Source of the DNA: an uncultured delta proteobacterium
GTDB taxonomy: Bacteria; RBG-13-61-14; DRUE01
Direction of reading: 5' to 3'
Assembly: GCA_903930515.1 (NCBI GenBank)
Contig: CAIYYW010000179.1
Span: 1 to 27,592, forward strand
Length of the DNA stretch: 27,592 nt
Made by a program: the position numbers and the translations under genes. Shown here in pieces: positions 311 through 21,957 of this stretch. The notes under the pieces were generated by a model. It was not told the origin of the DNA. It made no database searches and saw only the letters and a list, made by a program, of their open reading frames with translations. How positions within the stretch are numbered: the first letter of the stretch is position 1; each line of letters starts with the position of its first letter.

Positions 311-3300
311 ATGAAAGGTCTCAAGCCGACAATAAACACGGCGGCGCTTTTCGGATTATTGATTGTTTCCCTGCCTTCCCTGCTTCACTCCCAAAAACCA
401 GGAGCTTTTTACTTTGGAGATTCGGACAACGGTCTCGTTGACGGCCCGGATCTGACTTCAATGGAATTGGGACTGGCCGCCCTGGACCCGGGCTACTGGC
501 TGATCCCTCCCAGCGATCGGGCCCGCACCGCGCTCTGGCAAGACCTGGACGGAAACGGGATTCTGGATGGCCCGGACTACGGCATTATCCAGGGCTGGCT
601 GGGCGGAGATTTCAGTGACTGTTCCGGGAATCCTTCTGAGATTGCGATAGAAGACCCGGCTCCCGGGGTGGAGGCCGGCAATTCGGTGGTCGTCCGCGCT
701 TACGCGCGATCTGGTTACGGCGCACTCCGGCCCGGATGGGGAATGGTGTTTGAGATCACCGGGGGCAGCTGCGACGGCGCTTTGGTTTACGGCCGGGACC
801 CGAACGACGGCGGCAGTTACGGATATTTTGGAGACCGGGCTTATGAATATACTGCGGAGCCTTTTGATGGCGGCTGGGCGAATGTCCGGGTGGTCTCGCC
901 GGGGACCTGCGGGAATGGACAGACCATTGAGTTGGAGGTTTATTTCCCGGCTGACAGCGAATACGGCATTCCCAACTCGCGGATGCCGGAGCGATTGACG
1001 GCTTGGAATTATTCGCCGAGCCGGGGCGGGACCATTGAGCGGATCGTGATCACGGTGAGCGGGACCGGTCTCCCTTATGTCACCGGCATTGAATTGCGTC
1101 CGAACCCTGCCACGGTTGACGAGGGCTCCACTATTTCTTTTCGCGCCCTCTGCGCGCTCTCGGACGCGAGCACGGTGGATTGCACTTCTTCATATCAGGG
1201 GGGCAATACCCAATGGACCAGCGTCGGCGATTTGACCCAACTCAATCCGGCGAACCTGTTCCAGGGAAACCTATACGGCGGGAACGGCGCCGTGACCGTG
1301 ATTTATGATGACGGCGCCAACCCCCCGGTCTCGGACGCGGTTTTGGTGACGGTTCTGGATGTAACCCCGCCGGACACTTTCATCAATTCTCATCCGCCGG
1401 ACCCGAGCAATTCTTCGGACGCGGCTTTTTCTTTCAATTGCAACGAGCCTTCCTGCGGCTTTGAATGCAAGCTGGACAGCATGAGCTTCAGCCCCTGTTC
1501 TTCTCCCAAGAATTATTCCGGGCTTTCCGACGGGATACATCTCTTCCAGGTCCGGGCCGTGGATGGCGGGGGCAATTCCGACCCGAATCCGGCCGGTTAC
1601 AGTTGGAGAGTGGAAGCCGGTCCGCCCGACACCTTGATCGTTTCCTCCCCGGCCGCTTACTCCATCCAGAGCGTGGCGCTGTTTGAGTTCGCCTGCACCG
1701 ACCCGGAATGCTCTTACCAATGCCGGATTGATTCCAGCGCCTGGTCCTCCTGCGTTTCTCCCTTAATTTATAACCTGTTCTGGGGAGCACTGTCCGACGG
1801 AGGCGCCCCCCCGGCCAGGTATAGGCACAGCGCGGTCTGGACCGGCTCGGAGATGATCGTCTGGGGCGGTTCCCCGCCCACCAACACCGGGGGCAGATAC
1901 AATCCGGTGACCGATTCCTGGCTGGCAACTTCAACCATCAATGCCCCTTTGGCAAGATACGGACAAACCGCGGTCTGGACCGATTACCTGATGATCGTCT
2001 GGGGAGGTCGGGACGCGCCACTCTACAATACCGGGGGAAAATATAATCCGGCCACGGATGCATGGACCGCCACTTCCACCACCGCCGCTCCCGCGGGACG
2101 CGCTTTTCATTCTGCGGTCTGGACCGGAACCGAAATGATCGTCTGGGGAGGAATTCCCAATGTCAATACCGGCGGCCGTTACAATCCGGCCGCCGATTCC
2201 TGGGCCGCGACTTCAACCGCGAACGCGCCCTCGGCAAGATCCTTTCAGAGCGCGGCCTGGAGCGGCAATGAGATGATGATCTGGGGAGGACACAACGGGG
2301 CCGCGTACCTGAACACCGGCGCCAGGTACTATCCCTCCTCTAATTCCTGGGCCTCGATTTCTTCCGCCAACGCCCCTGGCGCGAGGAGATACCATACCGC
2401 GCTCTGGACCGGAACCCGGATGCTGATCTGGGGAGGCGACGGCGGGAGCGCTCTTTTTGACACCGGGGGCCGTTATAATCCGGCGGCTGATTCCTGGAGC
2501 GCGACTTCCACCACCAACGCCCCGCAGAGGAGATACTATCACAGCGCGGTCTGGACCGGAACGGAAATGGTGGTCTGGGGAGGTTTTTATACGGACGGCA
2601 CCTGGAAATACTGGTTGAATACCGGGGGCAAATATAATCCCGCTTCCAACTCCTGGGCCGCCACGGAAATACAGGACGCGCCTTCCGGAAGGGAACGACA
2701 CAGCGCGCTCTGGACCGGCTCGGTGATGATCGCCTGGGGAGGAACTTCCAGTCTCGCGACCAATACCGGCTCTAAATACTACGCGAACGCCCCGAAGTTC
2801 AACCCGACCGAAGCGAGTCATCTGTTTGAAGTCAAGGCCACGGATTTGTCGGGGAACACCGATCCCAGTCCCGCGCTATACAACTGGACCATAGACCGGA
2901 CCGCGCCGAACACCTCCATTTCTTCCAGTCCCCACAACCCCTCCGGCCAGGGCTTTGCAACCTTCAACTTCTCCGCCAACGAGACCGGCTGCGCTTTTGA
3001 ATGCAAGCTGGACGCGGGTTTATGGGAGACTTGCGTCTCTCCCAAAATTTACGCCGGCATCCCGGACGGGTATCATTCCTTTTCCAGCCGCGCGATTGAC
3101 CGGGCCGGCAATGTGGACTCCACGCCCGCGGCCTATAGCTGGCAGATAGATACCGTGGCGCCGGAGACCACGCTCAATTCTCAGCCGGCCGATCCGAGCA
3201 ATTCCCAAAACGCGTCCTTTGCCTTCAGTTGTAATGAAGGGAGTTGTTCTTTTGAATGCAAGCTGGACGGACGGGACTGGACGGCTTGCGCCGGCGCCGC

Positions 3301-6300
3301 TCAATATTATTCGCTGGCCGAGGGCATCCATAGTTTCCAGGTTCGCGCCAAGGATCCCGCGAATAATCTTGATCCAACTCCGGCAAGCTACAGCTTCCGT
3401 GTGGACACGATTGATCCCGACACTTTCATCGCCCTTAATCCGCCCAATCCCTCTCCGACCAGGTCCGCGGGTTTCGGATTCAACGGTAACGAGGAGAATT
3501 GCTCCTTTGAATGCAGGATGGATCTGGGCCAATGGAGCGACTGTTCCTCCCCAATCAATTACTCCGGCCTTAATCCGGGCGCTCATTCCTTTGAAGCGCG
3601 GGCAATGGATTCCGCCGGCAACCTTGACCCATCCCCGGCCGTTTTCAACTGGACCATCAACCTGATTACCCCGTATTCTTTCATCATCGCTCATCCCGAT
3701 AATCCCACCGGAGAGAGGGATGCTCTTTTTGAATTCAATTGCGCCGGCGGCCCCTGCTCCTATCAATGTCAATTGGATTCCGGGAGCTGGAACAGTTGCG
3801 TCTCTCCCGGTTCCTACCGGAACCTCGGACTCGGCATCCATAATTTCCAGGTCCGCGCCACCGACGGCTTCGGGCAATTGGAATCCGAGCCTTCCCAATA
3901 TCAATGGGAGATTATTGACCTGGACCCGGACATACCCGACACTTTCATCAATTCCGGCCCGGCCGATCCCTCTTCCATCCGGTCCGCGGATTTTGAATTC
4001 AGTTGCGACGAGGCGGGTTGCAGTTTTGAGTGCAAAATGGACAGCGCCCCCTGGACTAATTGTTCCTCGCCGAAAAATTACTCCGGCATTGATCCCGGCG
4101 TCCATACCTTTCAAGCGCGGGCCACGGACACCGGCGGCAACCGCGATCCGAGTCCGGCCGGTTATTCCTGGAGCGTCAATATCTCCGCTCCCTATTCCAT
4201 GATCACGGCGCATCCCGGAAATTTCACCACCGAGCGGGAAGCTGCTTTCGCCTTTGATTGCGCGGGCGGGCCTTGCTCCTTTGAGTGCCAACTGGACTCC
4301 GGGGGATGGAGCGGATGCGCGTCGCCGGTCTCTTTCAGCGCATTGGGCCTCGGCCCTCATTCTTTTCAGGTCCGCGCCACCGACGGTTCCGGACAGACGG
4401 AACCGGAGCCTTCTCAATATCAGTGGCAAATCATCGTCTATCTCCAGGTCGCCTCCGGTTATGCCCACACCTGCGCCATCGCCAATAACGGCATGCTCTG
4501 GTGCTGGGGGGATAATAGCGCCGAGGAAATCGGCCCGGACTATCCCGGGATCGTTGACGCGCCGGTCCCCGCTTCCGCGGATACCGACTGGGCTCTGGTT
4601 TCCGCCGGAGGCAGTCATACCTGCGCGATAAAGAGCAATGGAAAGCTTTTCTGCTGGGGCGGCAACGGGTCCGGGCAATTGGGAAACGGTTTTTTCGGAT
4701 CCAGCGATTCCAGCCCGCAGGTAGGCTCGGAAAACAACTGGCAAAAAATTTCCGCGGGCGCGGATCAAAGCTGCGCCCTTAAAAGCAACGGAACCCTCTG
4801 GTGCTGGGGCGGCAATTCCTTGGGACAGCTCGGGGACGGGACCAGTGTGGACAAAAAATTGCCCGTCCAGATCGGAACCGCGACCGACTGGAGAGAAATC
4901 AGCGCGGGCAAATATCATAGTTGCTCCGTCAAGAACAACGGCTCGCTTTATTGCTTTGGATATAATTATTTCGGACAGCTCGGGGACGGGACCCAAACCG
5001 ACCGGCTTTCGCCCACCCGGGTGGGGGCCGCCCTGGACTGGCGGGGAATTTCCGCCGGCTATCAATACAGTTGCGCGACCAAAACCGGGGGCAGTCTCTG
5101 GTGCTGGGGATTGAACCAGGACGGCAAAGCCGGGTTGGGAGCCGTCACTCAGGTATTGGTCCCGACCCGGGTGGGCGCTGATTCCGACTGGTCCGGGATC
5201 AAGTCCTTTTGGAACCATAGCTGCGGGATCAGGAATAGCCAGCAATTATGGTGCTTTGGAGCCAACGATGACGGACAACTGGGAGACGGCGCCCGGGCGG
5301 ATCAACGAACCCCGATCCGGATCGGCGCTGACGCGGATTGGCTGCAGGTGGCCGGCGGGGGCGTTCATAGTTGCGCGGCCAAGGTCAACGGTGAAGTCTA
5401 TTGCTGGGGGGACAATTGGTATAGCCAGCTCGGACTCGGGTTTAGCGGCGGAAACAAGAACTCTCCGGTCCAGGAAGCCGCTTCAGGGGAGAACTGGGAA
5501 AAAGTGGAAGGGGGAGCGGGCAGGCTGCAATCCAATTACGGACATAACTGCGGGATCAAGAGCGATGGCTCACTCTCCTGCTTTGGGGATAATTCTTTTG
5601 GAGAACTGGGACTGGGGGACACGCTCAAGCAGCAAATCCCGCTCCAGGTCGGCGCGGATTTAAACTGGATTGATCTGGTTGGAGGCGGCGGTCATTTCTG
5701 CGCGCTGAAAAATAACGACTCGCTCTGGTGCTGGGGAGATAACGGCTCCGGCCAGCTCGGGGATGGAACCTGGATTGGCAAATGGAGTCCGGTTCAAATC
5801 GGGAGCGGAATCTCCTGGAAACAAATAGCCGGAGGATATGCCCATACCTGCGGGATCAAGTCCAATGATACCCTCTGGTGCTGGGGTTACAATGGCGTCG
5901 GACAATTGGGCGACGGGACCACCGTTTGGGACCGGAACACGCCGGCCCAGGTCGGCGCGGGGAATAACTGGAGCCAAGTCTCCGCGGGCGCCTATCATAG
6001 CTGCGGGCTCAAGAATGACGGCTCGGCCTGGTGCTGGGGAGAGGGGTGGGACGGGGAATTGGGAAACGGAACCACTGCGGATAAAAATGTTCCGACCCGG
6101 GTTGGAACCGAATCCAACTGGCTCCAGATTGCCGGGGGAGATTCCCATACTTGCGCGCTTAAAACCAACGGAACCCTCTGGTGCTGGGGATATAATTATT
6201 ATGGACAATTGGGGATCGGGAATTCCGGGTCCGGCTCTGATAAAAAAATCCCGACCCAGGCGGGAACCGACGCGGATTGGGCCCAGCTCTCGGCCGGAGG

Positions 6301-6571
6301 GAATCATAGCTGCGCCCTCAAGAGCGACCATTCCTTATGGTGCTGCGGATACGGCGGGCAGGGTCAGCTTGGAACCGGAACTTTTTCATCCCGGAGCGCG
6401 CTGACCCGGGTGGGGACCGGCGGAAACTGGGAGCAGGTGTCCGCGGACGGGGATCATACCTGCGCGGTCAGGACCGACCATACTTTGTTTTGCTTCGGCA
6501 ATAATCAATCCGGACAACTGGGAGACGGAACCGCCTGGAGGGACACCCCTCAAAGGGTAAAGGTGCGGTAG
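311..6571 (+). CDS. Giant secreted multidomain protein: Ca-loop, Ig-like, Kelch and RCC1 repeats
   Basis: 2086 aa, exported. Residues 1-28 are a Sec signal peptide with a hydrophobic core from about 11 to 26. Next come two dockerin/EF-type calcium-loop motifs at D37 (DSDNGLVDG) and D78 (DLDGNGILDG), then an unassigned beta-rich segment (about 105-255) and a Big_2-like Ig domain (about 256-350). From 354 there are eight repeats of about 83 residues with the pattern CNExxCxFECKLD...C.SP...HSFQVRATD. The second is split by seven Kelch repeats (about 493-827). Residues 1377-2086 are 14 RCC1 repeats, each with a paired-cysteine motif like HTCALKxNGxLWCWG. The paired cysteines suggest disulfides and an extracytoplasmic location. 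No C-terminal anchor or sorting domain is visible; the protein ends inside the last RCC1 repeat. The likely role is adhesion or ligand binding, but no ligand can be read from the sequence. The SD-like GGGAAGGGG supports this ATG. The neighbouring gene is convergent. Confidence 0.93.
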   Translation: MKGLKPTINTAALFGLLIVSLPSLLHSQKPGAFYFGDSDNGLVDGPDLTSMELGLAALDPGYWLIPPSDRARTALWQDLDGNGILDGPDYGIIQGWLGGDFSDCSGNPSEIAIEDPAPGVEAGNSVVVRAYARSGYGALRPGWGMVFEITGGSCDGALVYGRDPNDGGSYGYFGDRAYEYTAEPFDGGWANVRVVSPGTCGNGQTIELEVYFPADSEYGIPNSRMPERLTAWNYSPSRGGTIERIVITVSGTGLPYVTGIELRPNPATVDEGSTISFRALCALSDASTVDCTSSYQGGNTQWTSVGDLTQLNPANLFQGNLYGGNGAVTVIYDDGANPPVSDAVLVTVLDVTPPDTFINSHPPDPSNSSDAAFSFNCNEPSCGFECKLDSMSFSPCSSPKNYSGLSDGIHLFQVRAVDGGGNSDPNPAGYSWRVEAGPPDTLIVSSPAAYSIQSVALFEFACTDPECSYQCRIDSSAWSSCVSPLIYNLFWGALSDGGAPPARYRHSAVWTGSEMIVWGGSPPTNTGGRYNPVTDSWLATSTINAPLARYGQTAVWTDYLMIVWGGRDAPLYNTGGKYNPATDAWTATSTTAAPAGRAFHSAVWTGTEMIVWGGIPNVNTGGRYNPAADSWAATSTANAPSARSFQSAAWSGNEMMIWGGHNGAAYLNTGARYYPSSNSWASISSANAPGARRYHTALWTGTRMLIWGGDGGSALFDTGGRYNPAADSWSATSTTNAPQRRYYHSAVWTGTEMVVWGGFYTDGTWKYWLNTGGKYNPASNSWAATEIQDAPSGRERHSALWTGSVMIAWGGTSSLATNTGSKYYANAPKFNPTEASHLFEVKATDLSGNTDPSPALYNWTIDRTAPNTSISSSPHNPSGQGFATFNFSANETGCAFECKLDAGLWETCVSPKIYAGIPDGYHSFSSRAIDRAGNVDSTPAAYSWQIDTVAPETTLNSQPADPSNSQNASFAFSCNEGSCSFECKLDGRDWTACAGAAQYYSLAEGIHSFQVRAKDPANNLDPTPASYSFRVDTIDPDTFIALNPPNPSPTRSAGFGFNGNEENCSFECRMDLGQWSDCSSPINYSGLNPGAHSFEARAMDSAGNLDPSPAVFNWTINLITPYSFIIAHPDNPTGERDALFEFNCAGGPCSYQCQLDSGSWNSCVSPGSYRNLGLGIHNFQVRATDGFGQLESEPSQYQWEIIDLDPDIPDTFINSGPADPSSIRSADFEFSCDEAGCSFECKMDSAPWTNCSSPKNYSGIDPGVHTFQARATDTGGNRDPSPAGYSWSVNISAPYSMITAHPGNFTTEREAAFAFDCAGGPCSFECQLDSGGWSGCASPVSFSALGLGPHSFQVRATDGSGQTEPEPSQYQWQIIVYLQVASGYAHTCAIANNGMLWCWGDNSAEEIGPDYPGIVDAPVPASADTDWALVSAGGSHTCAIKSNGKLFCWGGNGSGQLGNGFFGSSDSSPQVGSENNWQKISAGADQSCALKSNGTLWCWGGNSLGQLGDGTSVDKKLPVQIGTATDWREISAGKYHSCSVKNNGSLYCFGYNYFGQLGDGTQTDRLSPTRVGAALDWRGISAGYQYSCATKTGGSLWCWGLNQDGKAGLGAVTQVLVPTRVGADSDWSGIKSFWNHSCGIRNSQQLWCFGANDDGQLGDGARADQRTPIRIGADADWLQVAGGGVHSCAAKVNGEVYCWGDNWYSQLGLGFSGGNKNSPVQEAASGENWEKVEGGAGRLQSNYGHNCGIKSDGSLSCFGDNSFGELGLGDTLKQQIPLQVGADLNWIDLVGGGGHFCALKNNDSLWCWGDNGSGQLGDGTWIGKWSPVQIGSGISWKQIAGGYAHTCGIKSNDTLWCWGYNGVGQLGDGTTVWDRNTPAQVGAGNNWSQVSAGAYHSCGLKNDGSAWCWGEGWDGELGNGTTADKNVPTRVGTESNWLQIAGGDSHTCALKTNGTLWCWGYNYYGQLGIGNSGSGSDKKIPTQAGTDADWAQLSAGGNHSCALKSDHSLWCCGYGGQGQLGTGTFSSRSALTRVGTGGNWEQVSADGDHTCAVRTDHTLFCFGNNQSGQLGDGTAWRDTPQRVKVR
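1370..4437 (+). repeat. Eight cysteine-rich Ig-like repeats (protein level), the second split by Kelch
   Basis: Repeat units begin near bases 1370, 1622, 2898, 3153, 3408, 3661, 3930 and 4186, and each encodes about 83 residues. The consensus is D-T-x-I-x-x-x-P-x-x-P followed by F-x-F-x-C-N-E-x-x-C-x-F-E-C-K-L-D, W-x-x-C-x-S-P, and H-x-F-Q-V-R-A-x-D with D-P-x-P-A-x-Y-x-W at the end. Four cysteines per unit are nearly invariant. Between 1787 and 2791 the second unit is interrupted by the Kelch block. These are coding repeats, not a DNA array. Confidence 0.85.
1787..2791 (+). repeat. Seven Kelch repeats, one predicted beta-propeller
   Basis: Seven units of about 46-53 residues carry the bacterial Kelch pattern A-P-x-x-R-x-x-H-S-A-V-W-T-G, then M-I-V-W-G-G, then N-T-G-G-R-Y-N-P-x-x-x-S-W. 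Seven is the usual blade number for a closed galactose-oxidase-type propeller. The seventh unit breaks off after NTGSKYYANAP, where the Ig-like sequence resumes. Confidence 0.85.
4438..6571 (+). repeat. Fourteen RCC1 repeats, probably two seven-bladed propellers
   Basis: Fourteen units of about 50 residues carry the RCC1 pattern S-A-G-x-x-H-T-C-A, N-G-x-L-W-C-W-G, G-Q-L-G-D-G-T, P-x-x-V-G, D-W. Seven blades is the known RCC1 fold, so 14 fits two propellers, with a boundary near base 5501 between units 7 and 8. Unit 1 lacks the GQLGDG turn, unit 8 has an insertion near its start, and unit 13 reads WCCG with an extra cysteine. Confidence 0.85.
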
Positions 6572-6613: not shown

Positions 6614-8356
6614 TTACTTGCTCACCATGACCTGATCAAACAGCGTTCCCTGATCGTCATAAGCCGAGACCTGAAAATAGTCCGCGCCGACCTCCACCAG
6701 CAGAAAGTGATAGCGCCATTCCTGAACCAGGCTTTGAACCTGCTCCCCCGAGGACTGGCTTTCCTCCTGCAAAAAGGACGGGTCCGGCGCGTCTCCCGCC
6801 GAAAAAAACGATCCGCCCCCGCCTCCGCTGGTAATATAGGGCACGCCCGAAACATCCAGCCGCTCATACAGGTGATTATGTCCGGCGAATCCCGCGGAAA
6901 CATCATATTGGCGGAACAGGGGCGCGAGAAAAGAAAGCCCCGCGACCCCCGGCCCATAAGAGTGGTCGTATCCCGAATAGAAAGGGGGATGGCTGAAGAT
7001 AAAAGTGAATTTTCGGTCCGGGTCCGAATAGGCCTTTGCCAACTCGCGCTCCAGCCAATAATAAACCGCGGAACCCTCTGCCAGTTGGTTTTCCAGGTCT
7101 TCAATCACAATAAAATAAACCCCCTGGTATGAAAAAGAATAACAAAGCTCGTTCAGGTCCGGGGAATAATTGTTTTTCGGAAGCGCATAATATGCCCGGT
7201 ACCAAAGGGCTGATTCGTGGTTGCCCCGGACCGGGAAAATCGGAGTCCGGCTGAGAAGCGGCTGTTCAATCTGGAAAAAATTGCGGCGCAGGGCGCCGGA
7301 AAAATCGTTGGCGAAATCCCCCAGGTGAAAATAAAAATCAAAATCCTTCCCGGCCATCTGATCAATCACCCGCTGATGATCTGGATCGGTCTGGGTGTCG
7401 CCGATAATGGCAAAGGCAAAAGTCTTCGGCTCCCGGGACAGGGTGCGGAAACTATCAACCGGGCTTGGATGATGGCTGGACCGAATCTGGTAATAATAGG
7501 TGCTTCCCGGCTCCAGCCCGGTCAATTCCACCTGGTGCACAGACAGGTTAAAGACCGGCGGATTGGTTATGCCGGACAGGCCGGGGTCCTGGTAGCGGCT
7601 GCTCTTGCCCACGGCCTGATCAAGAAGGGACGGCTTGGAGCCGTAATGAACAATGGAATGAGACTCGGAGTCGGTCTCCCATAAAACCGTCACGGAATCG
7701 GTCGTGATCTGATTTAAATAAGGCTGGATCGTAAGTTCCGCCCGCGGATCGTCCGGATGCGGAAGTTTCGCCCGCGCCTCCGCTTTGATCCTGACTTGCT
7801 CTTTCCCGTTCCCCAGTTCAAAGGCCATTGCCCAAAGCCAATTGCTCGGAGTATCGTTGTTATATCGGAGCGCCCGCTTTCGGGAATAAAAGTCTCCATA
7901 ATTATAATAAGGAAGGCCGGTTTTTTTATTGAAGCCGCTGATCAGGGAGATGGTATCCCCGGAAACGGCAACCAGGTCCTGGGGATAGACCGTCGGGGAT
8001 CCCAAATCCGTAATCTGGACCCGGGCGTCCGTCAAATCCTTGAGCAGTCGGCTGCCTTCCAGGCCGAGAAAAAGTATCACCATCTGATCCTGGAAAAAAT
8101 AACCCCGGACATAACCTGGATAGGGCGCCAACTGAGCGCTCATCCCGCCCAATTCTTCCGCGGCCGACCCCGGCCGGCTCTCCAGTTCAACCCTCTTCCT
8201 AACCGGGTCAATTTTGAACACCAGCTCCAAAAGGGGCTTCGGCGCCGGGTGGTCCAGGGACGGCGGATCGGATTGAAAAGGGGAATTAGATCCGGGCGAG
8301 CAGGAAAAGGCAGACAACCAAACCAGGACAGCTGCCCATTTTATCCTTGCCTTCAA
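6614..8356 (-). CDS. Secreted purple-acid-phosphatase-like metallophosphoesterase
   Basis: 580 aa. It is a predicted exported phosphoester hydrolase with a dinuclear metal centre. The start is TTG, chosen because GGAAGG lies 8 nt upstream and the encoded peptide opens with a signal sequence. Cys19 after LSAFS may be a lipidation site, although the lipobox is imperfect. Residues 35-200 form a region I do not recognise. Residues 206-306 look like the Fn3/PAP N-terminal domain (VTVLWETD, GLEPGSTYYYQI). Residues 313-500 are the catalytic domain with the motif set GDTQ (D320), GDFAN (D347), GNHE (N379, H380), SHPP (H456) and GHNH (H493, H495). The metal-binding and catalytic positions visible in these motifs are present, so activity is plausible. 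Nucleotides, phosphoproteins or phosphorylated glycans are all possible substrates. The gene has its own promoter and is convergent with the giant protein gene. Confidence 0.88.
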   Translation of the reverse strand: MKARIKWAAVLVWLSAFSCSPGSNSPFQSDPPSLDHPAPKPLLELVFKIDPVRKRVELESRPGSAAEELGGMSAQLAPYPGYVRGYFFQDQMVILFLGLEGSRLLKDLTDARVQITDLGSPTVYPQDLVAVSGDTISLISGFNKKTGLPYYNYGDFYSRKRALRYNNDTPSNWLWAMAFELGNGKEQVRIKAEARAKLPHPDDPRAELTIQPYLNQITTDSVTVLWETDSESHSIVHYGSKPSLLDQAVGKSSRYQDPGLSGITNPPVFNLSVHQVELTGLEPGSTYYYQIRSSHHPSPVDSFRTLSREPKTFAFAIIGDTQTDPDHQRVIDQMAGKDFDFYFHLGDFANDFSGALRRNFFQIEQPLLSRTPIFPVRGNHESALWYRAYYALPKNNYSPDLNELCYSFSYQGVYFIVIEDLENQLAEGSAVYYWLERELAKAYSDPDRKFTFIFSHPPFYSGYDHSYGPGVAGLSFLAPLFRQYDVSAGFAGHNHLYERLDVSGVPYITSGGGGGSFFSAGDAPDPSFLQEESQSSGEQVQSLVQEWRYHFLLVEVGADYFQVSAYDDQGTLFDQVMVSK

Positions 8357-14048: not shown

Positions 14049-16706
14049 CTATCTATCGCGCTCCTCAAACATTTTTCTCAGGATGATCTCGGGCTGGGTG
14101 AATAAATCTTCCTGGGGCCGGTCCAAAATCAGGGATTTTTGAGCGGCCTTATCCTTTTGGATTTGATCCAGTTGTTCAATGATTTTGTCAACCTCCTGGT
14201 CGGTGGGATTTGCCGGCACCGGGATCGGGAATTCAAAGATCAGCAGGCTGAGTTCAGCCGGCTCAATCCCGGTTTTACCGGAGTTCACTCCGGCCCGGAT
14301 CTGGATTTCTTCTTTCCTGCCGGCCAGTTCCTTGAGCAGAATTTTATCCTGTTCCTTTTCCGGGAGGTCCTTGATCTTTTTGTCAGTGGTCGCGGATTCC
14401 AGGGTGACGGATTCCAGGGTGACTTTGGATAATAGCCGGAAGAGCGCCACCCCGACGCCGTTCTCCAGCCGGAAGGGATTCTCGCCGATGATTTCCCCGG
14501 GACCGGAAATTTCAAACCGGACCGCCAATTTATTTTCCTTGACCGGATTCCCCTCCGCGTCCACCAGTCTCGCGATCACCCGGATCGGGTCGGAATATTC
14601 CTGATACGGGATCAGGGCGTCTATGTCCGGCTCAATCCGATTAAATTCTTCCCCCAATTCCAGAATAATTTTCGCCGGAGCTCCCGGGGTTTGGAGACGA
14701 TCTTCAGCCCGGACCTCGCCTTTAATCAGGCACTGCGCGGCCAGCTCTCCCGGCTCGAATTTGAACCCGGAGAAAGTGAAGGGAGGCCGGGACAGGGTTT
14801 GGTATTCGCCGGGGCGCGGGAACAAATATTTTTTGTCCGGGCCGCGGGTGGCAATCTCTTTATGGTTGATGGTCAATCTCACCTGGTCGCAATTGCCGAC
14901 CGCCATCACCTCGCCGGGGAAATCCGGTTTCTGCCACCATTGGTTGATGATTTTCACCATCGGGGTTTCCGAGGTCTGGGCCTGGAAGAAATAATAGCTC
15001 GGCTTTTTCAAACGGTAGAGGTCAACGATGCCGTGCCGTCTGATCCGGTATTTGGCATCCGGCGCCGCCAGCCGGGTCATAAAGGTATTGTAATCCGCAA
15101 AAACCCAGCCGGTTGAGCCGGAACAACTCGGCTCGGATTGAATCAAGTCCAGCATATATGCAGTCTGACGAACGGTGGCGATCTGAAGAGCGTCTGTCAG
15201 GGTCGGAGCTCCAACCGAATATTCGCTCACGATCCAGGGCTTATTTCCAGGCGGCTTGAGTAAACCTCCGGAATAATCGTTATGCGCGATCACCTCCTCG
15301 CGGAGATGCCGGAAGTTCCGGACAAAGCGCGCGCCGGAAGCCGGCCGGGTCGGGTCCAACTCATGCGCGGGCCGGATCATTTGCTCCAGCCATTTCTCCC
15401 CCCACCAGGCCTCGTTGACCCGGACCCCCCAGAGGATAATGCTCGGCCGGTTCCGGTCGCGGAGGATCATTTCCCGCAAAGATTGCTCAGCGACTTTTTT
15501 CCATTCCCGGTTCCCGACAAATCCCCATCCGGGCAACTCCTCAAAAGCCATCAGGCCGAGATGGTCGCAGGCGTCCAGGAAATCAGGGCTTTGCGGGTAA
15601 TGGGAAAGCCTGACGAAATTTAAGCCGCTTTGCTTGAGCAGGAGCGCGTCCAGGTATTGGAGCCGGAAGGACGCGGCGTTTCCGAGATAGGGATATGACT
15701 GGTGTCGGTTCAGGCCGAAAAGCTGGAGACGCTTGCCATTGAGAAAAAATCCCCGGTCGGTGAACTTAAACCAACGGAATCCGTAATGGAAGGAAATGAG
15801 ATCGGACATTTCCGGCGCTTCTTCCGAGGATTTGGTTTCGGATTTTTTTCTCAAGTCCGGGCAGGAGATTTTCAGGTTGAGGTCGTAAAGATAAGGATAG
15901 TCCGGAGACCAGAGTTTGGGATTTTCTACCGGCATCTCCAATTCCGCTTTGGAGCTTCCGGGAGGGACCGTTAATTCTTTTTCCCGCTCGGAAATGCTTA
16001 CCCCTTCCATCCCCTCCTTGCCCTTGACCTGATCCCATAAGCTCGCGGTGAAGGAACAAGAGATCGGCTCGGAAAGAGTATTGTTGGCGTCCGCGGAGAT
16101 TTTCAAGACCGCTTTTTGCTCATTGAGTTCGGGGGTGAAGGCAAAGGGATGCTCCAGGTAAACCGGGGGCTTGCGCTCGATCCAGACATCCCGATAAATC
16201 CCGCCAAAGAGGGTGTAGTCAACCAGAAACCCCTCGGGCGGGACATTCATTTTTGAATTGTCAACCTTCACCGCCAGCAGGTTTTCTTTTCCGGGCAGAT
16301 AGGCGTCCGTGGCGTCAAAGACGAACGGGGTATATCCGCCCAGATGATAGCCGAGGTATTTGCCGTTCAGCCAGACATCGGCCCGGGTGAGGGCGCCCTC
16401 GAAATGGATCAGGGCCCGGTCGCCGCTCCGGTAGTCGTCTCCGAAGGCGCTGAAGCGGAGGCGGTAAAGTCCGACGCCCCGGTAATATTTTTGGGACAGC
16501 TTGAACCGGGCCGGCTCCAGGTGGAGCGTATGCGGGAGCGAGACCTTGTCCCAGTCCTGATCATTGTATTGAGGCTTTTCAAAATTCTCCGCGTCCCCCT
16601 GGTGATAGAGCCAGGCGGAGTTGAGGGATAGCTGTTGGGATTCGCATCCGGAGCAGGAACTCAGGAACAGGAGCGCCATCCAGGCCGGGATCAGCAATTT
16701 TTTCAT
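14049..16706 (-). CDS. GH2-family glycoside hydrolase, predicted lipoprotein
   Basis: 885 aa. A lipoprotein signal (ALLFLSSC, Cys18) would place it on a membrane facing the periplasm or outside. The order is typical of GH2: sugar-binding beta-sandwich (about 25-178, with DVWLNGKYLGYHLGGYTPF), Ig-like domain (180-305), TIM barrel (308 to about 600). The predicted acid/base is E432 in WGVRVNEAWW, and the predicted nucleophile is E495 in WIVSEYS. A DUF4982-like domain (near VRLTINHKE), an invasin/Big-like domain (DPIRVIARLVDAEGNPV...) and a polar alpha-helical tail follow. Beta-galactosidase, beta-glucuronidase or beta-mannosidase activity are all possible, and the motifs do not settle which. 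The ATG overlaps the rodZ-like TGA by 4 bp and has no strong ribosome binding site, so translation is probably coupled to it. It is the last gene of its operon. Confidence 0.9.
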   Translation of the reverse strand: MKKLLIPAWMALLFLSSCSGCESQQLSLNSAWLYHQGDAENFEKPQYNDQDWDKVSLPHTLHLEPARFKLSQKYYRGVGLYRLRFSAFGDDYRSGDRALIHFEGALTRADVWLNGKYLGYHLGGYTPFVFDATDAYLPGKENLLAVKVDNSKMNVPPEGFLVDYTLFGGIYRDVWIERKPPVYLEHPFAFTPELNEQKAVLKISADANNTLSEPISCSFTASLWDQVKGKEGMEGVSISEREKELTVPPGSSKAELEMPVENPKLWSPDYPYLYDLNLKISCPDLRKKSETKSSEEAPEMSDLISFHYGFRWFKFTDRGFFLNGKRLQLFGLNRHQSYPYLGNAASFRLQYLDALLLKQSGLNFVRLSHYPQSPDFLDACDHLGLMAFEELPGWGFVGNREWKKVAEQSLREMILRDRNRPSIILWGVRVNEAWWGEKWLEQMIRPAHELDPTRPASGARFVRNFRHLREEVIAHNDYSGGLLKPPGNKPWIVSEYSVGAPTLTDALQIATVRQTAYMLDLIQSEPSCSGSTGWVFADYNTFMTRLAAPDAKYRIRRHGIVDLYRLKKPSYYFFQAQTSETPMVKIINQWWQKPDFPGEVMAVGNCDQVRLTINHKEIATRGPDKKYLFPRPGEYQTLSRPPFTFSGFKFEPGELAAQCLIKGEVRAEDRLQTPGAPAKIILELGEEFNRIEPDIDALIPYQEYSDPIRVIARLVDAEGNPVKENKLAVRFEISGPGEIIGENPFRLENGVGVALFRLLSKVTLESVTLESATTDKKIKDLPEKEQDKILLKELAGRKEEIQIRAGVNSGKTGIEPAELSLLIFEFPIPVPANPTDQEVDKIIEQLDQIQKDKAAQKSLILDRPQEDLFTQPEIILRKMFEERDR
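14395..14424 (-). repeat. 15-bp tandem duplication inside the GH2 gene
   Basis: Two adjacent 15-bp units differing only at the last base encode the repeated peptide VTLES-VTLES near the C-terminal end of the GH2 protein. It is in frame and lies in what looks like a linker, so it probably does not affect function. Confidence 0.6.
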
Positions 16707-17506
16707 TGCGGTTTCGTGGACTCCGGTTTCGGCTCCGGAGTTTTGGGCGCAGGCTTTTCAAATTTCTCCGGTAGGTATTTGGGCAGATCTTCCGGGATCA
16801 AAAACCGCATCGGCTTCCAGTGTCCGCCGATCGGCTTGAGCCTGACGCCGTTGATGACGATCTCCACCCCGCCGGCGTTCCCGATCAGGAGGCTCAATTT
16901 CTCCTGGGCCTCAATTTTAAAACTGTCCTCGGAATAAAGCATCATCTCCTTGCCGGCCTTGCCGTCAATGGTGGTCAGCACCCAGCAGAGTTCATTGGCC
17001 TTGAGGCTGACCGAGAAGGGCGGAGAAACACTCTGCAAAGAACGGACCGGCGCCGGAAGAGATGTCGCCACGGCGCCGCCCTGACCAGGGCTTGGCCGGG
17101 CCGGGGCCGGCAAAGCAACCCTTGCGGCGGGATTTTTTTTCAAACTCCAGATCAGGCTTCCGACCAGGCCGATCAGGATCAGGACGAAAAGCCCGGCCAG
17201 GCCCCAGACCCAGGCCCGGGACTTCTGCGGGATCGGCCCGGATTTCGGCCCGGACAGGGCAGGTTTGGTTTCCTTCAGATACTCCTCAAACCGGAGCAGG
17301 GTTTGTTCGGGATTCAGACCAACCTGCTCGGCATAGGCGCGGATAAATCCGCGGACAAAGATCAGCCCGGGCAATTGCTCATACTGATCTTTTTCCAGGG
17401 CGAGCAGGAATTTCTTTTGGATTTTGGTCTTGGCGCTGATCCCGTCCAGCGAGAACTCGCGGGTTTCCCGCTGCTGACGAAGGTATTCGCCGAAGGAGCT
17501 TTCCAT
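16703..17506 (-). CDS. RodZ-like membrane protein with N-terminal helix-turn-helix
   Basis: 267 aa. Residues 5-67 form the HTH_25/Xre-like domain of RodZ (GEYLRQQRETREFSLDGISA, then FVRGFIRAYAEQVGLNP). A basic linker leads to one transmembrane helix (about 99-122). A Pro/Ala-rich segment and a DUF4115-type beta domain (about 163-245, CWVLTTIDGK...GNAGGVEIVINGV) follow, and the protein ends in a Pro/Lys/Glu-rich tail. In E. coli RodZ links the MreB cytoskeleton to the cell-wall elongation machinery. Here the cytoplasmic HTH and extracytoplasmic beta domain have the same order, but it is shorter than E. coli RodZ. It starts 8 nt after the TPR stop and overlaps the GH2 start, so it is mid-operon. 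Co-occurrence with a PilF-like gene is conserved in gammaproteobacteria and supports the call. Confidence 0.85.
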   Translation of the reverse strand: MESSFGEYLRQQRETREFSLDGISAKTKIQKKFLLALEKDQYEQLPGLIFVRGFIRAYAEQVGLNPEQTLLRFEEYLKETKPALSGPKSGPIPQKSRAWVWGLAGLFVLILIGLVGSLIWSLKKNPAARVALPAPARPSPGQGGAVATSLPAPVRSLQSVSPPFSVSLKANELCWVLTTIDGKAGKEMMLYSEDSFKIEAQEKLSLLIGNAGGVEIVINGVRLKPIGGHWKPMRFLIPEDLPKYLPEKFEKPAPKTPEPKPESTKPQ

Positions 17507-17513
17507 CTGGCAA

Positions 17514-18284
17514 CTATTTCTGGGAGGAACAGTTTAATAGCTTGAGATACTGGCTCGAGGACTTGGCCTCGTCGCTCTCCGGGGTCGCGTTTCTCAAAGC
17601 CTGGTTGAATTCCGAGCAGGCCTCTTTGGTCTTGCCCTGCCGGTTATATTCCAGGCCGAGCAGACGGTGGGCGCGCGGAAGGTAGGGGCAGAGTTGGATG
17701 GCCTGCTGTAATTCCTTAACCGCCTCCGGATATTTCTTTTGCTTGCTCCGGAGCTCCCCTAAATTGGTATGGGGATTACAGAAACCGGAATTGAGCGCCA
17801 TTGAACGGTTGAGCGCGTTCTCCGCCTCCGGGAGTTTGTCCTGCAACAGGAAAATCCAGCCGATATCGTTCCAAGCGATATAGGCCTCGCGGAACAGGTC
17901 GTCGCTCGAGGCTTTCTGATAGCTCTTCAGGGCTTCCTCCAAATTGTTTTCCACCAGGTAGATGTCCCCGCGCAGGAGATTGGCATCAGAATATTTCGGG
18001 TTATATTGAATCGCCAACTCAATGTTTTCCTTGGACTTGCCTATCTCCTGGCGGAAGAGATAAATCTTGGACAGCCAGTAATAAACCTCCGGGTCCTTGG
18101 GATTGCACCGCTTGGCCTCTAGGATGTTGTTCAGCGCCGCGTAAAGGTCGTTGCGGTGGACATCCATCTGGACCTGCTCCTTTTTGACCTTGGCGTATTC
18201 CGGATTCTTGCACGGATCTTTTTCCTTGGCATTGGCGCAGGAAATCACGCTGAAAATAATTATTCCGATCCATGATTTTCGCAT
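17514..18284 (-). CDS. TPR lipoprotein, PilF/PilW/Tgl-like
   Basis: 256 aa. The signal peptide ends in the lipobox VISC (Cys16), giving a predicted outer- or inner-membrane lipoprotein. Residues 40 to about 250 are around six tetratricopeptide repeats, for example NPKDPEVYYWLSKIYLFRQE, NLEEALKSYQKAS, YPEAVKELQQAIQLCPYLP and GKTKEACSEFNQAL. Size, lipidation and position directly before rodZ match PilF/PilW and Myxococcus Tgl, lipoproteins needed to assemble the type IV pilus secretin in the outer membrane. No other pilus gene is in the window, so a general scaffold role is possible. GAGGGGGG overlaps the preceding stop and lies 4 nt before this ATG, so the pair is tightly coupled. Confidence 0.82.
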   Translation of the reverse strand: MRKSWIGIIIFSVISCANAKEKDPCKNPEYAKVKKEQVQMDVHRNDLYAALNNILEAKRCNPKDPEVYYWLSKIYLFRQEIGKSKENIELAIQYNPKYSDANLLRGDIYLVENNLEEALKSYQKASSDDLFREAYIAWNDIGWIFLLQDKLPEAENALNRSMALNSGFCNPHTNLGELRSKQKKYPEAVKELQQAIQLCPYLPRAHRLLGLEYNRQGKTKEACSEFNQALRNATPESDEAKSSSQYLKLLNCSSQK

Positions 18285-18294
18285 AGTTCCCCCC

Positions 18295-19482
18295 TCAAAA
18301 CATCGCCAGAAATTTTACCATTATCTTCAGGTCCTCGGGATCAAGACCGCCCTCGGCCGCCGGTTGATCCCCCTGGTCCGCGGCTTCCGGCCCAACCGGA
18401 TTCGCGGCCTCCGCAAAAATCTCTTCACGCCCCGCGCTGATCCCGGACGCGGCCTCCGCCTCCACCTGCTTTGGTTTGGCCGGCGCGGCCGGGATGGGCT
18501 TCGCCGGCTTGGCTTCCGGAACCGGCGCAAATTTTGCCTCAACCGCAGGCGGCTCCGGCTCGGCCAGGGTTTCAAAAGCAATCTCTTCCACTTCCATAAC
18601 CGGTTGCGGCGCGGTCTCCGACCCCGGCCCGATCTCGGTTTCAATCCCCGCGCTTATTTCCGGCTCCACCGAGATCGTCGGCTGAGCTTCATTGAGTTCC
18701 TGCTCCCAGGCAACTTCCACTTTCGGCTCCGCGGCCAGGGGCGGCTCCGGCTTCGCTTCGCTCTCTTCCATCTCAATGATCAGCCCGGTATCCCGCGCTT
18801 TGCCTCGGGGAGGCGGCATCTCCAGATCTTCTTTCAGCTCCAGGTTCTCCAGCAAAATGTCTTCCTCCGCCGGCGCCTGCCCCGGCTCCGGGGAGGCGGA
18901 CAGGGACTGCTCCAAGGGCGGGACCATCACCTCGTCCAGGATCGTCCCTTCCGGTTTTTGCTCCGCAAAGGCTTCCGCTTGAATGACAAAATCACCCTCG
19001 GTAACCGAACTCTCCTGCTCTTCCACCGACTCCACCACCAGCTCGTCAGCCACCGGTTCGATCTCCAGCACTTCCTCCTCAACCTGCTCCTGGAACCGGG
19101 AGAGGTCCTGGAAAAATGCCGGCATCGAGTTATAGAGCTGTTCCTTTTGATCCGGAGCCATCTCCCGCCAGCGCAGGTCATTCATCATAAATCCCATACT
19201 CTCGGTGAACTCGGTCGCGGCCTGCTGGACCTGGGGAACCGTTTCCTTCGGCATCACCCCTGCGTCCCACTTGTAAAGCAGCCCCAAGTTGGAAGTGATC
19301 AGGTGCAGGAAGATATAAAACTCGTAGCCCTTGGGGGATCGCAGGATGCAGACATAGGCCTGCGCCGGCTCGGGCGAGCGCCCGGGCGGAACCACGATCG
19401 GCCGGTTGACCGAGGTGGCCAGATATGCCACCTGGTCCGGCATGGCCTCCACCCAATTCTTTTTTGGCTCCTGCTGAAACAT
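18295..19482 (-). CDS. Unrecognised protein with long acidic Pro/Glu/Ala-rich region
   Basis: 395 aa, with no signal peptide or transmembrane helix. I do not recognise the family. Residues 1-135 look folded (AQAYVCILRSPKGYEFYIFLHL, then WDAGVMPKETVPQVQQAATEF and MNDLRWREMAPDQKEQLY), with a helical second half. Residues about 136-375 are low-complexity, rich in Glu, Pro and Ala and almost certainly disordered. The last 16 residues, LDPEDLKIMVKFLAMF, would make a short amphipathic helix. It is the first gene of the TPR/RodZ/GH2 operon, with a TTGACA promoter just upstream. Only 10 nt separate it from the TPR gene. The context suggests envelope assembly, pili or polarity, with the acidic linker acting as a tether. 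The function is unknown. Confidence 0.82.
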   Translation of the reverse strand: MFQQEPKKNWVEAMPDQVAYLATSVNRPIVVPPGRSPEPAQAYVCILRSPKGYEFYIFLHLITSNLGLLYKWDAGVMPKETVPQVQQAATEFTESMGFMMNDLRWREMAPDQKEQLYNSMPAFFQDLSRFQEQVEEEVLEIEPVADELVVESVEEQESSVTEGDFVIQAEAFAEQKPEGTILDEVMVPPLEQSLSASPEPGQAPAEEDILLENLELKEDLEMPPPRGKARDTGLIIEMEESEAKPEPPLAAEPKVEVAWEQELNEAQPTISVEPEISAGIETEIGPGSETAPQPVMEVEEIAFETLAEPEPPAVEAKFAPVPEAKPAKPIPAAPAKPKQVEAEAASGISAGREEIFAEAANPVGPEAADQGDQPAAEGGLDPEDLKIMVKFLAMF

Positions 19483-19497
19483 CCCTTGCTTGCCTAT

Positions 19498-19526
19498 AGA
19501 GTATCCACTTTATTTTTCATTGTCAA
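19498..19526 (-). promoter_or_regulatory. Predicted promoter of the acidic protein/TPR/RodZ/GH2 operon
   Basis: On the minus strand a perfect TTGACA (19526-19521), 17 nt, then TACTCT (19503-19498). The ATG at 19482 is 15 nt after the -10, so the leader would be about 8-9 nt, too short for a normally spaced Shine-Dalgarno sequence. AAGGG directly abuts the ATG. Confidence 0.5.
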
Positions 19527-19533
19527 AACCGGA

Positions 19534-19557
19534 TAAAAATTGCTTTTCAAGGCAATT
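19534..19557 (-). terminator. Weak intrinsic terminator at the end of the GH31 gene
   Basis: On the minus strand AATTGC (19557-19552), an 8-nt loop, GCAATT (19543-19538) and then a T-run give a short hairpin-plus-U-tract. The left arm covers the last GH31 codons. With only two G-C pairs in six the stem is weak, so read-through is likely. A promoter for the next operon follows within 15 nt. Confidence 0.45.
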
Positions 19558-21943
19558 GAACCTTGATTTGCTTGCCCGAATAGCTCACGGTTTGATCCGG
19601 GGTATTGGCGGGCAAGACCCCGACTCCGAAATTGTCGCGGACCAAAACGATCTGGAAGGTCCTCTGCTTGAGCATGGCGGGGAAGGATCCTTTCCGGTCG
19701 CCAATGACTATTGTCCGGGCGGCATCATCCCATTTGAATTTGATCAGGCAGTACTCTCCTTTTTCATAGTTATAGCTGAGACCGTCGTCTTCATAAAGCG
19801 TGAACTCCGAGTCGACTCCGGGATAGACGCGCAGTTCCAATGGATCCGCGGGTTTTTCCAGGGCGTATTGCAGGAACGGCCCCATCGGGATGATGGAACC
19901 GGCTTTGATGAAAATGGGCATAATCTCAATGGGCGCGGGGGCGTCAACGGTCTGGCCGCCCGCGATTTTTTTCCCGGTCCAGAAGTCATACCAGCTGGCG
20001 GATCCCGGCAGGCACACCTTGCGGGTCTGGGATTTGGCAGGAGAGGCTCCCGAAGCTTTGGGGCTGGTAACCGGATTGACCAGGATGGCCGGGCCGAACA
20101 TAAACTGGTCGGTAATGGATCGGACCTTTTGATCAGCCGGGAAATCCATGGGCAGTCCGCGCATAATGGTGTAACCATGGTCAGTGACCTGCCAGGCCAG
20201 GGAATATATATAAGGTAAGAGGCGGTAGCGAAGCTGGTCAAATTTTTCCAGGCTGTCGTAAGCCCAGGAGCCTTTTTCCCCGAACTGCCAGATTTCCCGC
20301 GGGGTCATTGTCCCGTGGGAGCGGAAGATCGGGCAGAAGGCTCCATACTGGAACCAGCGAACATACAGTTCGCGGTATTTTTCGTTCTCGCTCCCGCCCC
20401 GGAAAAAGACGAAAAATCCGCCGATGTCGGTGGTCCAGTAGGGAATGCCGGCCATTGAGATATTCAGCCCGGCCGGGATCTGTTTCTGGAAAACTTCCCA
20501 ACTCGCCTTGATGTCGCCGGACCAGGTGGCCGCAGCGTTGCGTTGTTGTCCCGCGAACGCGGATCGGGTCAGGATGAACACACGCTGGTCATCGGTCACG
20601 CCCCGCTGTCCTTGATAAACGGCCTCGGTGGTCATAAGCGAATAAGCGTTCAGATACCGGGCGGTGGAGCCGAGCGCGGTCTGTCCGGCTTTTTTGAAAT
20701 CCCGGGTCTCCATAAAGCGGAGATTGGCCAGGCTGAATTCCGGCTCGGTCCCGTCCAGCCACCAGGCATCCACGCCCTGCGAGAAAAGGCCCTTATTGAT
20801 ATAGTCCCAATACAACTTCCCCGCCGGCTCGCTGAACGCGTCATAAACCCCGGTCCCGCCCAGACCCGGGCGGGAATAGAGGAATCCCTTTTCCTTCATC
20901 GCTCGGTAGATGTCGGTCTCGGGTCCGAACTTGGGCCAGACCGAAATCATCAGGTGGACCTGGTATTTATTATGAAGCTCGTCAATCATTGCCTTCGGAT
21001 TCGGGAAGACGCTCGGATCAAATTGCATCGCGCTCCATCCCAGCTTTCCCCAATACATCCAGTCCTGAACGATCACATCCAGGGGCAGCTTGCGCTCCCG
21101 GTATTCCCTCACCGTGGCGACCAGTTCCTCTCCGGTCTGGTATCTTTCTTTGCTCTGGAAATAACCATAGGCCCATTTGCCGAACATGGGCGCGGCGCCG
21201 GTGAGGTCGCGATAACCCGCGATCACCTGGTCGGCCTCGGGCCCGTAAATGAAATAGTATAACACTCCATCCGCGACCTCGGACCAGAGAGAGAATCCGC
21301 CCGCCCTGCTTTGGAATTTGCTCAGCGAGCAGTTGTCCCACAAAATCCCGTAGCCCCGGGTTGAGAGCAGGAACGGCACCACCGCGATGGTGTTGGCCTG
21401 CGCCATCAAGACCTGATGTCCCGCCCAGTTGATCACCCCGTCCTGGTACTGGCCCAGGCCGTAAAGCCCCTCGTCCGGGCTGGAAAGAAAAGTCTGGCCC
21501 GCGTGATAAGTCTCTTCCCCCAGGACTTTGGCTTTGGTCAAAGTCCCGCCGCCGGTTTCCGGTTCCTGCAAAATAACGCTTCCGCTTCGGTCGAGATAGG
21601 TTATGGCGCCGGTCTTTTTGGAAATCTTCAGTTGCAGCCGGGCCGTGGTGATAACAAGGGTTTCCGCCGATTCCGATAATTGCCACTCCACGATCTTGCG
21701 GGTCTGGGCCGGGACGATCAGGCTCGGCCTGGTCGGAGAATTTTGAAAGGGCGAATAATAAACCCCGATGATGTTCTCGTCGAGAATGGCAAGGTTCATG
21801 GTTCCGGCGGGCAGGTTCAGGATCAGGCCGTTCGCCAATCGCTCAGCAATGGTAACCGTGCCCGCGCCGGCCGGGTTAATCCCTGAGCACAAAAAAATTG
21901 CCGCGGCCAAAAACATTTGAGAACATTTGCGCATGCCTCTCAT
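19547..21943 (-). CDS. GH31-family alpha-glycosidase, secreted
   Basis: 798 aa with a signal peptide ending near AGA (residue 27). Residues 30-235 form the GH31 N-terminal beta-sandwich (YGLGQYQDGVINW). The (beta/alpha)8 barrel follows to about residue 620: PLDVIVQDWMYWG, the predicted nucleophile D397 in WWLDGTEPE, the acid/base D477 in TWSGDIKASW, and PYWTTDIGGFF. A C-terminal beta region with PIEIMPIFIKAGSIIPMGP and VYPGVDSEFTLYEDDG corresponds to the family's DUF5110-type domain. Retaining alpha-glucosidase or alpha-xylosidase activity is expected. The LTRSAFAGQQRNAAATWSGDI segment resembles alpha-xylosidases, but this is not decisive. The start has GAGGGGG 7 nt upstream. It follows the GH38 gene by 14 bp in the same operon. 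Confidence 0.93.
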   Translation of the reverse strand: MRGMRKCSQMFLAAAIFLCSGINPAGAGTVTIAERLANGLILNLPAGTMNLAILDENIIGVYYSPFQNSPTRPSLIVPAQTRKIVEWQLSESAETLVITTARLQLKISKKTGAITYLDRSGSVILQEPETGGGTLTKAKVLGEETYHAGQTFLSSPDEGLYGLGQYQDGVINWAGHQVLMAQANTIAVVPFLLSTRGYGILWDNCSLSKFQSRAGGFSLWSEVADGVLYYFIYGPEADQVIAGYRDLTGAAPMFGKWAYGYFQSKERYQTGEELVATVREYRERKLPLDVIVQDWMYWGKLGWSAMQFDPSVFPNPKAMIDELHNKYQVHLMISVWPKFGPETDIYRAMKEKGFLYSRPGLGGTGVYDAFSEPAGKLYWDYINKGLFSQGVDAWWLDGTEPEFSLANLRFMETRDFKKAGQTALGSTARYLNAYSLMTTEAVYQGQRGVTDDQRVFILTRSAFAGQQRNAAATWSGDIKASWEVFQKQIPAGLNISMAGIPYWTTDIGGFFVFFRGGSENEKYRELYVRWFQYGAFCPIFRSHGTMTPREIWQFGEKGSWAYDSLEKFDQLRYRLLPYIYSLAWQVTDHGYTIMRGLPMDFPADQKVRSITDQFMFGPAILVNPVTSPKASGASPAKSQTRKVCLPGSASWYDFWTGKKIAGGQTVDAPAPIEIMPIFIKAGSIIPMGPFLQYALEKPADPLELRVYPGVDSEFTLYEDDGLSYNYEKGEYCLIKFKWDDAARTIVIGDRKGSFPAMLKQRTFQIVLVRDNFGVGVLPANTPDQTVSYSGKQIKVQLP

Positions 21944-21957
21944 TTGGTATCCCCCTC

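Follow-up and report, generated by a model that had tools for sequence, protein, structure and literature searches.

The window, by which we mean the whole 27,592-nucleotide stretch of DNA analysed, carries on its forward strand an open reading frame of 2086 codons without interruption (positions 311 to 6571), whose complete product of 2086 amino acids we call P0001. A Shine-Dalgarno-like GGAAGGGG (301 to 308), read directly from the sequence, lies 2 nt 5' of the ATG, and the N-terminus, read by eye, is hydrophobic and signal-like, with a signal-peptide-like segment at residues 1-27 (311 to 391) that ends in LPSLLHS|Q. P0001 is probably a large secreted protein, and its export would proceed through Sec. 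No LPXTG-like motif was seen by eye in P0001, and no anchor was recognised; a search for the T9SS marker SprA gave no matches in the genome and likewise none in the control genomes. The host belongs to a sparsely sampled bacterial lineage, in which a sister species is represented by a genome from lake sediment (MAG AlinenSedimentsD2_bin-1424). An open frame of 741 aa on the minus strand (3020-5245) runs antisense across the region coding for Ig-like and RCC1 repeats and is probably a side effect of the recurrent codons there.

The neighbouring gene (6614-8356) lies on the opposite strand and converges with the P0001 gene, which thus stands alone, with no partner gene that points to a function. 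Farther along, positions 14049-27590 of the minus strand hold glycoside hydrolase genes: a GH2 gene, a GH31 gene and, side by side, two GH38-like genes, of which the second was assigned by eye; the last gene runs off the window. These genes are too distant and oppositely oriented for a role shared with P0001 to be assigned.

Residues 29-353 of P0001 constitute an N-terminal module. It includes a dockerin-like pair of calcium loops (residues 33-105; 407 to 625), recognised by motif and alignment, with a Dockerin_1-related match elsewhere in the genome. The second loop, DLDGNGILDGPD, is canonical, with 12 residues, and the first is shortened, with one residue missing. The remainder (residues 110-353; 638 to 1369), presumed to form beta-sandwich domains, aligns with paralogues and with the sister species at 46-54% identity (alignment A1), and the sequence after the calcium-loop part has no Pfam family. 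The Dockerin_1 model (PF00404, cut-off 22.9 bits) found no match in P0001 up to E 0.1 and scored one of six family modules, at E 0.077. The calcium-loop module proposed in the initial annotation is thus plausible overall, one canonical loop speaking for it and the silence of Pfam against it. The likeness to type I dockerins lies in the paired 12-residue calcium-loop pattern, whereas the score below the Pfam threshold, the N-terminal position and the shortened first loop set the P0001 module apart.

Outside its own genome, the contig search found the module only in the sister MAG, of the same genus, and it was not found in viral contigs. Large secreted peptidases of the same genome, and of one further genome in the order, have weaker relatives of the module at their C-termini. 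One such relative lies at the C-terminus of an S8 subtilase (L048:5229-10004, own contig C313), and others at the C-termini of peptidases that by eye are M6- and C25-like (L088 and L089, genome G002). The genome also holds two cohesin matches, at 25.4 and 24.6 bits barely above the cut-off of 24.1, in L086 and L087 (own contigs C165 and C207); both proteins show a dockerin-like stretch by eye, and the locus on C165 adjoins a gene that by eye encodes a PorV-like outer-membrane protein.

Eight Ig-like repeats follow, starting at residues 354, 439, 866, 951, 1036, 1121, 1209 and 1294, with a mean identity of 45%. Motif and HMM delimit repeats 1 (1370 to 1624), 3 (2906 to 3160), 4 (3161 to 3415), 5 (3416 to 3670), 6 (3671 to 3934), 7 (3935 to 4189) and 8 (4190 to 4438), and profile alignment places the first half of repeat 2 (profile positions 1-50) at 1625 to 1774 and its second half (profile positions about 51-82) at 2798 to 2905. 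Six of the eight repeats contain four cysteines and two, those at residues 866 and 1036, contain three. The initial annotation had described eight disulfide-rich Ig-like repeats, a count on which motif and HMM agree, but only seven are intact, as the second is split by the Kelch block. Pfam Big_13 matches P0001 at 4.8e-14 (PF19077, 53.1 bits for the whole protein against a cut-off of 27, with no single stretch above the cut-off alone), and the Ca_tandemer adhesin repeat (NF033510) scored 44.8 bits, below its 50-bit cut-off. The repeats resemble Big_13 and NF047446 (OmpL47-type domain) in exceeding both curated cut-offs, and differ from them in that a sequence search of the PDB with the Ig repeats, up to E 1, found no relative of solved structure.

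The Kelch block comprises seven repeats (starts at residues 503, 549, 597, 643, 692, 740 and 794; mean identity 51%), the number originally proposed and now obtained by motif and HMM alike. Pfam Kelch_KLHDC2 matches P0001 at 7.3e-55, and the Kelch model PF24681 scores 186 bits against a cut-off of 50. The block, a predicted seven-bladed propeller of 341 aa (1775 to 2797), lies where the consensus of Ig-like repeat 2 breaks off: that consensus runs from residue 439 to ...CVSPLIYN (residue 488) and resumes after the propeller with FNPTEASHLFEVKATD... (residue 830), so that the insert is flanked by SPLIYN before and FNPTEASHLF after. Scored with an Ig profile derived exclusively from other proteins that this genome encodes, the spliced halves reached 99.4 bits, aligned over profile positions 1-82, whereas the first and second half separately gave 57.2 and 32.6. 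Because the consensus resumes and the splice restores the score, the Kelch block is, on sequence evidence, inserted inside the second Ig repeat and not between Ig domains, and the initial view that Ig-like domains space the propellers was wrong for Kelch.

An AlphaFold model of residues 437-867, computed with 4 sequences (pLDDT 82, pTM 0.73), supports closure of the Kelch repeats into one seven-bladed ring. The closed propeller occupies model residues 52-395 and matches galactose oxidases at Z about 32 over 316-323 aligned residues; the structural search also returned Kelch domains of the KEAP1/KLHL type. Ig strands appear on both sides of the propeller in the model (model residues 32-37 and 400-408), the split-Ig part being of low to middling confidence (blocks 47-77 in the first half). 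The P0001 Kelch block thus shares seven repeats and a closed ring in the model with galactose oxidase and the Kelch domains of KEAP1 and KLHL20, but its ring, in a bacterial protein, sits whole inside one Ig-like repeat. The likeness to galactose oxidase is one of modelled fold, and we do not claim galactose oxidase activity.

Fourteen RCC1 repeats occupy residues 1384 to 2086, again the number first proposed and the one that motif and HMM both return, with a mean identity of 42%. Pfam RCC1 matches at 4.8e-99 with 14 stretches (PF00415, 325 bits against a cut-off of 21.7) and WD40_RLD at 4.8e-139; by these scores, the Pfam and repeat evidence in P0001 lies far beyond chance. Pfam, motif and model together delimit two putative seven-bladed propellers, A (4439 to 5482), with a C-x9-C pair in each blade, and B (5501 to 6568). 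The two are 39.9-44.7% identical with no register clearly closer, and so show no sign of a recent duplication of a whole propeller. An AlphaFold model computed with 7 sequences (pLDDT 72, pTM 0.52) supports two separate seven-bladed rings, although their relative placement in it is not reliable: the structural search paired model residues 1-348 with UVR8 (Z about 51) and, separately, residues 355-710 with other RCC1-like chains (Z about 27-33). With the Kelch match to galactose oxidase, these models and structural matches support, as predictions, the early proposal of three closed propellers. P0001 shares RCC1 repeat sequence and fold with UVR8, RCC1, HERC2 and BLIP-II and differs from them in its tandem propellers, its C-x9-C in every blade and its attached Ig stalk.

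P0001 is one of many mix-and-match proteins in its genome (3.65 Mb in 401 contigs, 93% complete), where we found 104 match segments to it. In the contigs examined, the N-terminal module stands at nine gene starts, Kelch repeats occur in seven ORFs, and RCC1 repeats in over 25 ORFs, whole or fragmentary, many of these last cut by contig ends. In the sister species, proteins combine the module with Kelch x7, with Kelch x14, with both nested and C-terminal Kelch, or with nested Kelch and a non-RCC1 C-terminus. The 5' ends of several module paralogues are 81-94% identical at the DNA level over roughly 320-600 bases, which points to recent copying of gene starts; a close DNA copy of the 5' end of the window gene's module was not found among the paralogues. 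The near-identical starts lie on own contigs C54, C245, C220, C285, C157, C186 and C321 (loci L023, L012, L025, L026, L024, L022 and L036). So many propeller sets on related scaffolds suggest a repertoire of binders arising from domain shuffling.

A profile of the nested region, scanned across both species and one genome of the same order, gave 11 match segments in the P0001 genome and, in the sister species, 61. Exactly five proteins matched over the full span: P0001 and four sister proteins that share its insertion point and carry inserts of 331-346 aa. One sister match is collinear over about 1090 residues. The split Ig consensus is kept on both sides in all five, and the Ig fold therefore seems to be maintained. 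Where other Kelch blocks were examined in the two species, most came after an intact Ig repeat. In one 2253-aa sister protein (L094:3-6761, sister contig C427), cysteine-rich repeats ('YTCNDDGDTITG...') form an array into which one Kelch block is set, and Ig repeats may thus not be the only repeat type that Kelch blocks enter.

A protein from an unrelated lineage (G290:C44, locus L234) has the order Ig-Ig[Kelch]-FN3-like-RCC1, which resembles that of P0001. Unlike P0001, it has a classical Kelch block (29% identity to the window region), a shorter RCC1 block and a different N-terminus, and its Kelch insertion lies about 5 residues earlier. Its nesting is probably an independent insertion, the alternative being a common origin followed by drift; a propeller tree built on the question of one insertion or several gave branches without resolution, and the placement of its outgroup row G016, taken from the wrong frame, is worthless. 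The domain order, first put forward as new, holds up to the extent that an identical full-length order was not found, but its first half recurs in the sister species and a similar order in G290:C44, so the order is not isolated.

Farther afield, 116 of the 195 genomes in the phylum of G030 contained Kelch-region matches, with no split Ig repeat in the loci examined, and the phyla of G120 and G045 gave no full-span match to the nested region. As these wide searches scored no more than a handful of top candidates in each genome, the rarity of nesting is an impression and not a measurement. Peptide patterns for the nested region and for RCC1 had no match in viral contigs, where DNA patterns turned up numerous ORFs with RCC1 and two with Kelch, none of them with Ig halves; the plasmid search also gave no match. 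IMG/VR contigs commonly encode RCC1 proteins, in which the repeats number 7, 14 or 21 (L142, L099, L198, L184, L124 and others).

We consider it somewhat better than an even prospect that P0001, the product of a lineage-specific gene family, is secreted and serves as a modular binding protein, equipped with propellers that include an Ig-nested Kelch. Bacteria secrete RCC1-like propellers as binders, as BLIP-II illustrates (PMC9218822), and we infer a role in binding or display because Kelch and RCC1-like propellers bind elsewhere, secreted BLIP-II among them (PMC9218822). By sequence and model, its signal-like start and dockerin-like module are followed by eight Ig-like repeats, the second with the Kelch propeller in one of its loops, and two RCC1 propellers make up the C-terminus. 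The paired cysteines of the Ig repeats and RCC1 blades would form disulfides, and the Ig repeats thus stabilised would act as a spacer or stalk. The Kelch propeller, its two ends lying close together, would plug into an Ig loop and leave the Ig fold unbroken, and so would point out from the side of the stalk, with the RCC1 pair at the stalk's end. The propeller faces would bind extracellular protein or glycan ligands. The long extracellular display fibre of the initial annotation is conjecture, as neither the sequence nor the models show a fibre or attachment to the surface.

Alternatively, the N-terminal module may dock to cohesin-like surface domains in the manner of a cellulosome, making P0001 part of a cell-associated assembly scaffold with the propellers as cargo. 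Every family member that spans the dockerin-like loops conserves them, secreted peptidases bear a related module at their C-termini and two cohesin matches stand just above cut-off, all of which is consistent with such an assembly. Against this, the cohesin matches are borderline and come from proteins built differently, the first calcium loop is shortened and Dockerin_1 is silent on P0001, its single hit among six family modules being weak, and we regard docking as improbable. An artefact of assembly is far less credible still: the genome is fragmented and many family genes stop at contig edges, but the nesting recurs, with long collinearity, in the assembly of a second species, and the Ig halves splice precisely, so a chimaeric reading frame or chimaeric nesting is scarcely conceivable.

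It is also conceivable, if unlikely, that the nesting has no significance of its own: one old insertion would have been passed on through gene copies, with no functional meaning beyond a linker, and the gene would be one of many repeat proteins under loose constraint. That all five family members have the insertion at one site fits a single event, a tree without resolution cannot show repeated insertion, and most family Kelch blocks lie outside Ig repeats; yet the split consensus kept on both sides in five proteins suggests that the fold is maintained, and G290:C44 shows a nearby but different insertion point in another lineage. The bolder extension of our preferred reading, a binding protein with a nested propeller, is that the Ig loop is a general socket into which whole beta-propellers have been inserted more than once as exchangeable, side-facing heads, which we offer tentatively, as a possibility with the odds against it.

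None of the domain types in P0001 is new, and propellers of the Kelch and RCC1 kinds occur widely, both in bacteria and on contigs filed as viral; P0001 is a neat variant and not a new kind of system. A complete propeller within an Ig-like domain is nonetheless an unusual domain insertion, and we found no description in the literature, among open-licence papers, of a propeller nested in an Ig repeat of this type. With an exact junction and a recurrence in a second lineage, it offers a practical model of the way in which a small domain can accommodate a large one. The matches to the nested region point to a genus-level expansion of propeller proteins, and, were the Ig loop indeed a general socket, these sparsely sampled bacteria would possess a shuffled repertoire of propeller binders.
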